Of a stretch of DNA of 64,000 bases, positions 15,616-19,121 are shown piece after piece. Numbering within the stretch: the first letter of the stretch is position 1; every line of letters begins with the position of its first letter. Below the pieces are notes generated by a model, which ran no database searches, was not told the DNA's origin, and was given only the letters and a program-made list of their open reading frames with translations. The position numbers and the translations under genes were made by a program. Origin of the DNA: an uncultured SAR116 cluster alpha proteobacterium (GTDB lineage: Bacteria > Pseudomonadota > Alphaproteobacteria > Puniceispirillales > Puniceispirillaceae); the NCBI GenBank assembly GCA_902632595.1, contig CACPDC010000004.1:43375-107374 (forward strand). The letters run 5' to 3'.

Positions 15616-17757
<2,142 letters not shown>

Positions 17758-17873
17758 TTATCTCCCAAACTACTTCAACCTATAAGGATATCATAATTAT
17801 TTGTTTTTATTTTGTTATAAATTGATAAAAAACAGTTATAAAGTTTATTTAAAGAATGTTCTCTGTCAATTGA

Positions 17874-17890
17874 TTTAGAATGATTTTAAA
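17874..17890. promoter_or_regulatory. Candidate Irr-box (ICE) upstream of katG
   Basis: TTTAGAATGATTTTAAA is an inverted repeat of two 7-base arms around TGA. It differs at one base from the ICE consensus TTTAGAA-N3-TTCTAAA reported for alphaproteobacterial Irr. It sits about 120 bases upstream of katG and downstream of the irr-like gene. A second short palindrome, AGAA-TG-TTCT, lies at 17853-17862. In such AT-rich DNA a chance match is possible, but the context favours a real site. Confidence 0.5.
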
Positions 17891-18530: not shown

Positions 18531-19121
18531 ATGAATGCGATTATTTCTTTTTTAAAGCAGCGTCGATCTGTTATGATTCGAAAACTTGAACCTCATCCTT
18601 TGCCAGAGACCGATCTCCTATCCATCCTCGAATGTGGATCCAGAGTTCCAGACCATGGGATGCTGTCACCATGGAAAATCATCGTAATTGCTGGTGATCA
18701 AAGGAAAAAACTTGGCCAATCTTGCCTAAGATCCGAATTTGCAAAGCTCAACCCTGAAGCAACAGATGCAATGCTTGAATTTGAAGAAAAAAGGTTTGAA
18801 CAAGCATCCGTTGTTCTATGTGTCATTTCAAAGCCAGTAGACCATCATAAGATTCCAAAATGGGAAATGCATTTATCTGCAGGCGCTGTTTGTCAGAACT
18901 TACTCATAGCCTCACTTGCACTTGGTTATGGGGCGCAATGGGTAACACATTGGTATTCGTACAACGAAAAAATGTTGCAAACACTAGGCGGCGATCCTGC
19001 TACTGACAAAATAGCAGGTTTCATCTATATTGGAAAAAAAACAATCGAGCCAAATGAACGAAATCGACCAAACATCTCAAAAGTTATAGTGAGATATGGT
19101 GAAAAACACGAGGAAGGTTAA
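18531..19121 (+). CDS. Nitroreductase family protein (FMN-dependent)
   Basis: 196 residues, YdjA-like compact nitroreductase. The N-terminal RRSVMIRKLEP (FMN-phosphate contact), PDHGMLSPWKIIVI and GAVCQNLLIASLALGYGAQW motifs are the family pattern. These dimeric flavoproteins use NAD(P)H to reduce nitro compounds or quinones; the physiological substrate is unknown. The gene is divergent from irr and is followed 8 bases later by the RNase D gene, so the two are likely co-transcribed. Confidence 0.85.
   Translation: MNAIISFLKQRRSVMIRKLEPHPLPETDLLSILECGSRVPDHGMLSPWKIIVIAGDQRKKLGQSCLRSEFAKLNPEATDAMLEFEEKRFEQASVVLCVISKPVDHHKIPKWEMHLSAGAVCQNLLIASLALGYGAQWVTHWYSYNEKMLQTLGGDPATDKIAGFIYIGKKTIEPNERNRPNISKVIVRYGEKHEEG

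Follow-up and report, generated by a model that had tools for sequence, protein, structure and literature searches.

The stretch of DNA analysed here (64,000 nt, hereafter the window) is part of a 1.68 Mb genome, 73% complete, of an alphaproteobacterium of the SAR116 cluster (Puniceispirillales). Its irr and katG genes run in the same direction on the minus strand, and the 209-nt gap between them holds a predicted Irr box (Table 1). The katG product scores above the cut-offs of both catalase-peroxidase models. Divergent from irr, at 18531-19121, lies a nitroreductase-like gene (92 bits to PRK10828, under its cut-off) that takes the place held by fabA in many relatives.

Table 1. Features of the irr-katG region, in window coordinates.
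Feature	Position	Strand	Basis
irr, Fur-superfamily regulator placed in the Irr branch, 136 aa	17964..18374	-	Model scores, class-wide score gap, key residues
Predicted Irr box (ICE), TTTAAAATCATTCTAAA on the katG strand	17874..17890	-	One mismatch to consensus; kept in the order
Predicted -35 of the katG promoter, TTGACA, 4 nt downstream of the box	17864..17869	-	Sequence; 4-5 nt spacing in most relatives
Second dyad, AGAATGTTCT, between -35 and -10, considered non-functional as an Irr box	17853..17862	.	Imperfect; no relative with the same
Predicted -10, TAAACT, 16-nt spacer	17842..17847	-	Sequence and position versus relatives
katG, catalase-peroxidase, 712 aa, presumed target	15616..17754	-	PRK15061 1146 bits, TIGR00198 1040 bits

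On the plus strand the box reads TTTAGAATGATTTTAAA, one mismatch from the ICE consensus TTTAGAANNNTTCTAAA, and the katG ATG at 17754 (-) follows 119 nt downstream of its near edge. The original prediction of an Irr box one base off the consensus, about 120 bases upstream of katG and between it and an Irr-like gene, is thus borne out in both sequence and position. A box with at most one mismatch arose in 24 of 20,000 dinucleotide shuffles of the irr-katG gap (P ~0.0012); looser matches (≤3 mismatches) occurred across the whole window at chance level, 16 against 14.7 expected. Of the two predicted promoter hexamers, the -10 is the less certain.

Against NCBIfam models, the regulator scores 145.1 bits to IrrA (cut-off 150) and 133.7 bits to Irr (cut-off 170); the Irr models are its best matches over Fur, PerR, and Zur, with the Fur and PerR models at ≤62 bits. 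An identity as PerR was rejected on these values, the PerR cut-offs being 180-250. Across the class, Irr-branch hits separate from other Fur-family hits by a score gap, and the other member of the order in the class sample (G018) likewise falls short of the cut-off, at 141, so the order's Irr looks divergent. The His cluster takes the HHH form in the window protein; across the order, 48 of 51 proteins have HHH and three have HxH, and the Cys-Pro heme regulatory motif (HRM) is absent from all 51 as well as from the window protein. The neighbour of irr is fabA in many alphaproteobacteria outside SAR116, as well as in further genera of SAR116, and this shared position suggests the same gene. The Irr protein tree, from which we draw no conclusion, contains one clade of 48 order proteins, with weak support, and three proteins of family f3 stand apart from it. 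Model scores and the His cluster place the window protein, as judged from sequence, in the Irr branch.

We searched 61 genomes of the order, 55 of which have an Irr protein match (in some, Fur paralogues only). When Irr and KatG positions were compared by hand, irr lay directly upstream of katG on the same strand in 50 of the 51 genomes with both; in the sole exception (G037), katG is ~228 kb away and is preceded by a two-mismatch box. Alignment of the gaps revealed one conserved island, in which the box TTTARAAYSRTTCTAAA is followed after 4 or 5 nt by TTGAC and then, across a spacer of ~17, by a -10 rich in AT. Footprinting of the gap in relatives, proposed as a check on the original prediction, was strongly positive: a box with ≤2 mismatches is present in 35 of 43 distinct irr-katG gaps, the window's included, against 0.24 expected. 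Among 53 distinct katG upstream regions, 44 have a box at ≤2 mismatches and 48 at ≤3; in these 48, the distance from the box to TTGA is 4 nt in 37, 5 nt in five, and 2 nt in two, and four have no TTGA within 13 nt after the box.

Conservation across the order indicates that the box is not a chance match. Coincidence in AT-rich intergenic DNA would fit the chance-level count of loose matches in the window, as well as a total of one-mismatch matches in the genome itself that is not above the reversed control. It fits poorly with a position in the promoter that is constant over four families, with recurrence so far beyond expectation in gaps of which most has diverged, and with boxes that occur before katG in GC-rich genomes too, and we consider it very improbable. 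The consensus match at a promoter, together with conservation in relatives, assigns the element, as a predicted site, to the ICE/Irr box class.

The protein that binds this box is probably Irr. Alternatively, the box could be a real operator of another regulator (Fur L001 or an unrecognised protein), with irr a mere neighbour: Fur-family boxes resemble each other, and Magnetospirillum gryphiswaldense Fur binds the katG promoter (PMC3251581). The near-invariant irr-katG linkage and the fit of the motif to the Irr consensus argue against such an operator, as do the remaining two Fur-family genes of the genome, which resemble Fur and Zur and are unlinked to katG, and we regard it as improbable.

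A second palindrome, AGAATGTTCT, had also been reported beside the box. The text is present, but it has 4-bp arms around a 2-nt centre and is not perfect. The AGAA-NN-TTCT dyad occurs in no other gap of the set, being confined to this species, and we rejected it as an Irr box, since it is species-specific and its centre (2 nt versus 3 in the ICE) is out of register. No general second box emerged in SAR116, where observed counts were about equal to expectation.

A strict pattern applied to the 61 genomes gave 32 listed matches, mostly in irr-katG gaps, and none in the reversed control; the remainder comprise a petA/hemF promoter, a site ahead of irr in G059, and isolated sites such as G007 C20 and G057 C17. 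In the window's genome, the sole exact match to the relaxed pattern is the one at katG. The one-mismatch sites inspected there lie inside genes or by genes without an evident heme or iron role (three low-complexity sites were judged from reading the sequence only), and a wider Irr regulon in this genome was rejected. Among eight genomes of the family that are at least 96% complete, seven have matches, with katG promoters accounting for seven places and four others looking isolated, among them one just ahead of an mntR-like gene.

A genome-wide scan for the motif near heme genes, also suggested at the outset, succeeded in part: such a site exists in family f4 and none was found in the window's genome. 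Five genomes of genus g14 (L055, L059, L077, L078, and L079, site 1501-1517) carry the f4 site, a perfect match to the strict pattern between the divergent genes petA (Rieske protein) and hemF (coproporphyrinogen oxidase); an ICE before petA/hemF is absent from the window's genus. For Irr autoregulation, no box was found before irr in the window (best match, five mismatches); elsewhere, besides G059, L024 has a one-mismatch box before irr. The site by the mntR-like gene is in G016 (L261 1501-1517): a one-mismatch box, 11 nt ahead of an ORF resembling, by eye, the manganese regulator MntR. In G007 (L068 1501-1517), a gene for an ABC-transporter ATPase is preceded at ~130 nt by a perfect match to the strict pattern; searches of this genome, which is 61% complete, turned up neither irr nor katG. 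Because strong sites are few, Irr in SAR116 may be a nearly dedicated katG switch, with weaker sites possible. The window's genome is 73% complete, so further Irr targets or an OxyR could be missing from it.

The original prediction set control by iron or heme against the use of OxyR in many bacteria, a contrast that the wider sample upholds. No OxyR-grade protein was found in the 61 SAR116 genomes (best hit 111 bits; 64 bits in the window's own incomplete genome); in other alphaproteobacteria, top OxyR-type hits score 168-292 bits (next hits no higher than 138) and often lie beside katG in divergent orientation. An Irr-branch protein is present in 70 other alphaproteobacteria, 32 of which have katG, and katG stands directly beside irr only in G168. 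In this genome, from another family, katG, irr, and a gene for rubrerythrin follow one another (L206 1148-4471), and its box TTTGGAATTATTCTAAT lies upstream of katG, 3 nt before TTGACG.

For 35 katG genes outside the order, we compared box occurrence (≤3 mismatches) among OxyR classes, with OxyR status assigned by score alone and in a sample that ignores phylogeny: boxes precede 7 of 10 katG genes where there is no OxyR, 4 of 13 where OxyR is elsewhere, and 1 of 12 where it is adjacent (chance expectations 0.3, 0.06, and 0.10, respectively). The difference between the first and last classes (Fisher P = 0.006) serves as a guide only, the classes having been chosen once the first 20 promoters had been seen. 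Since this class control shows boxes elsewhere, we abandoned the view that they precede katG in SAR116 only. Within SAR116, Irr seems to fill the role of OxyR at katG.

Taken together, we think it probable that the box is an operator for the neighbouring Irr, at which apo-Irr represses katG and from which heme or peroxide relieves it. Where heme or iron is poor, apo-Irr would occupy TTTAAAATCATTCTAAA just upstream of the -35 hexamer, so that katG would be kept low and heme spared; where heme is plentiful, or where peroxide inactivates heme-loaded Irr, the site would be vacated and katG expressed. The dependence of katG control on iron or heme is presumed from membership in the Irr family and the His cluster, and heme or peroxide as the signal is borrowed from Irr proteins studied elsewhere. 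In those, apo-Irr binds the ICE and heme removes it, with ICE position setting repression versus activation (PMC7762939). In B. japonicum, Irr is degraded with heme and on H2O2 exposure (PMC4902296), and the HRM and His cluster drive the heme-dependent degradation (PMC4700492); R. sphaeroides Irr has no HRM, yet binds heme, and its deletion raises peroxide resistance (PMC3413700). Since SAR116 Irr is without the HRM, its release step may differ from that of B. japonicum.

Repression as the sign of control is moderately supported, and we rate it clearly above activation. Most boxes in SAR116 sit immediately upstream of the -35, a geometry that alone fits either sign. Irr could bind the same box and activate katG at low heme from just upstream of the -35: the near-constant -35 spacing of most SAR116 boxes is what an activator would need, and direct activation by Irr is known (PMC7762939). 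In family f3, however, the box overlaps the katG -10, and in several other alphaproteobacteria it likewise covers the -10/start region, a location poorly suited to an activator. The katG promoter region holds a pair of Irr-type boxes in four genomes (L232, L241, L242, and L123), again at odds with activation, and making more of a heme enzyme at heme scarcity, and less of it after peroxide destroys Irr, would make poor physiological sense. We therefore view activation as unlikely; the f3 arrangement and the two-box promoters favour repression by Irr. The paired boxes flank the -35 in some of the four genomes.

The Irr/ICE systems of Rhizobiales and Rhodobacterales (B. japonicum bfr and mbfA; R. 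sphaeroides mbfA and ccpA) share with this locus an Irr-branch regulator with a His cluster, an ICE-type box at the promoter, and a target that serves in oxidative-stress defence and is itself a heme or iron protein (PMC3413700, PMC4902296). Unlike in those systems, irr in SAR116 is fixed beside its presumed target across the order and strong sites are scarce, whereas the characterised regulons are for the most part broader (B. japonicum) or lack katG (R. sphaeroides, two predicted sites; PMC3413700). Actinobacterial furA-katG/CatR and Bacillus PerR similarly involve a Fur-superfamily regulator beside or controlling a catalase gene and operate along broadly similar lines, but the window protein is of the Irr branch (145 bits versus ≤62 for PerR) and has a His cluster for heme. 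In the OxyR-katG pairs of other alphaproteobacteria, seen in several genomes of the class sample, a neighbouring regulator gene likewise controls katG, but OxyR belongs to the LysR family.

According to PMC2464607, Rodionov et al. had already predicted Irr sites ahead of catalase-peroxidase genes in other alphaproteobacteria in 2006, so on that account the Irr-katG link itself is not wholly new. The passage of PMC2464607 on these sites mentions no irr-katG linkage, -35 spacing, or negative association with an adjacent OxyR. The literature searched, which excluded most subscription journals, yielded no report of the order-wide irr linkage, the fixed geometry, the lack of an OxyR-grade protein, or the inverse relation to an adjacent OxyR.

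Tentatively, SAR116 Irr may have narrowed from a global iron regulator to a near-single-target, locally encoded heme/peroxide switch for katG that replaces OxyR, with alphaproteobacterial katG wired to either OxyR or Irr through repeated swaps; we regard this broader scenario as possible, short of probable. SAR116 bacteria abound in the sunlit ocean, where the water is often poor in iron. If katG follows heme status, and not a thiol peroxide sensor, peroxide defence in SAR116 would depend directly on iron supply. The rarity of boxes where OxyR is adjacent offers a testable explanation for how bacteria exchange the sensor that governs a conserved defence enzyme.
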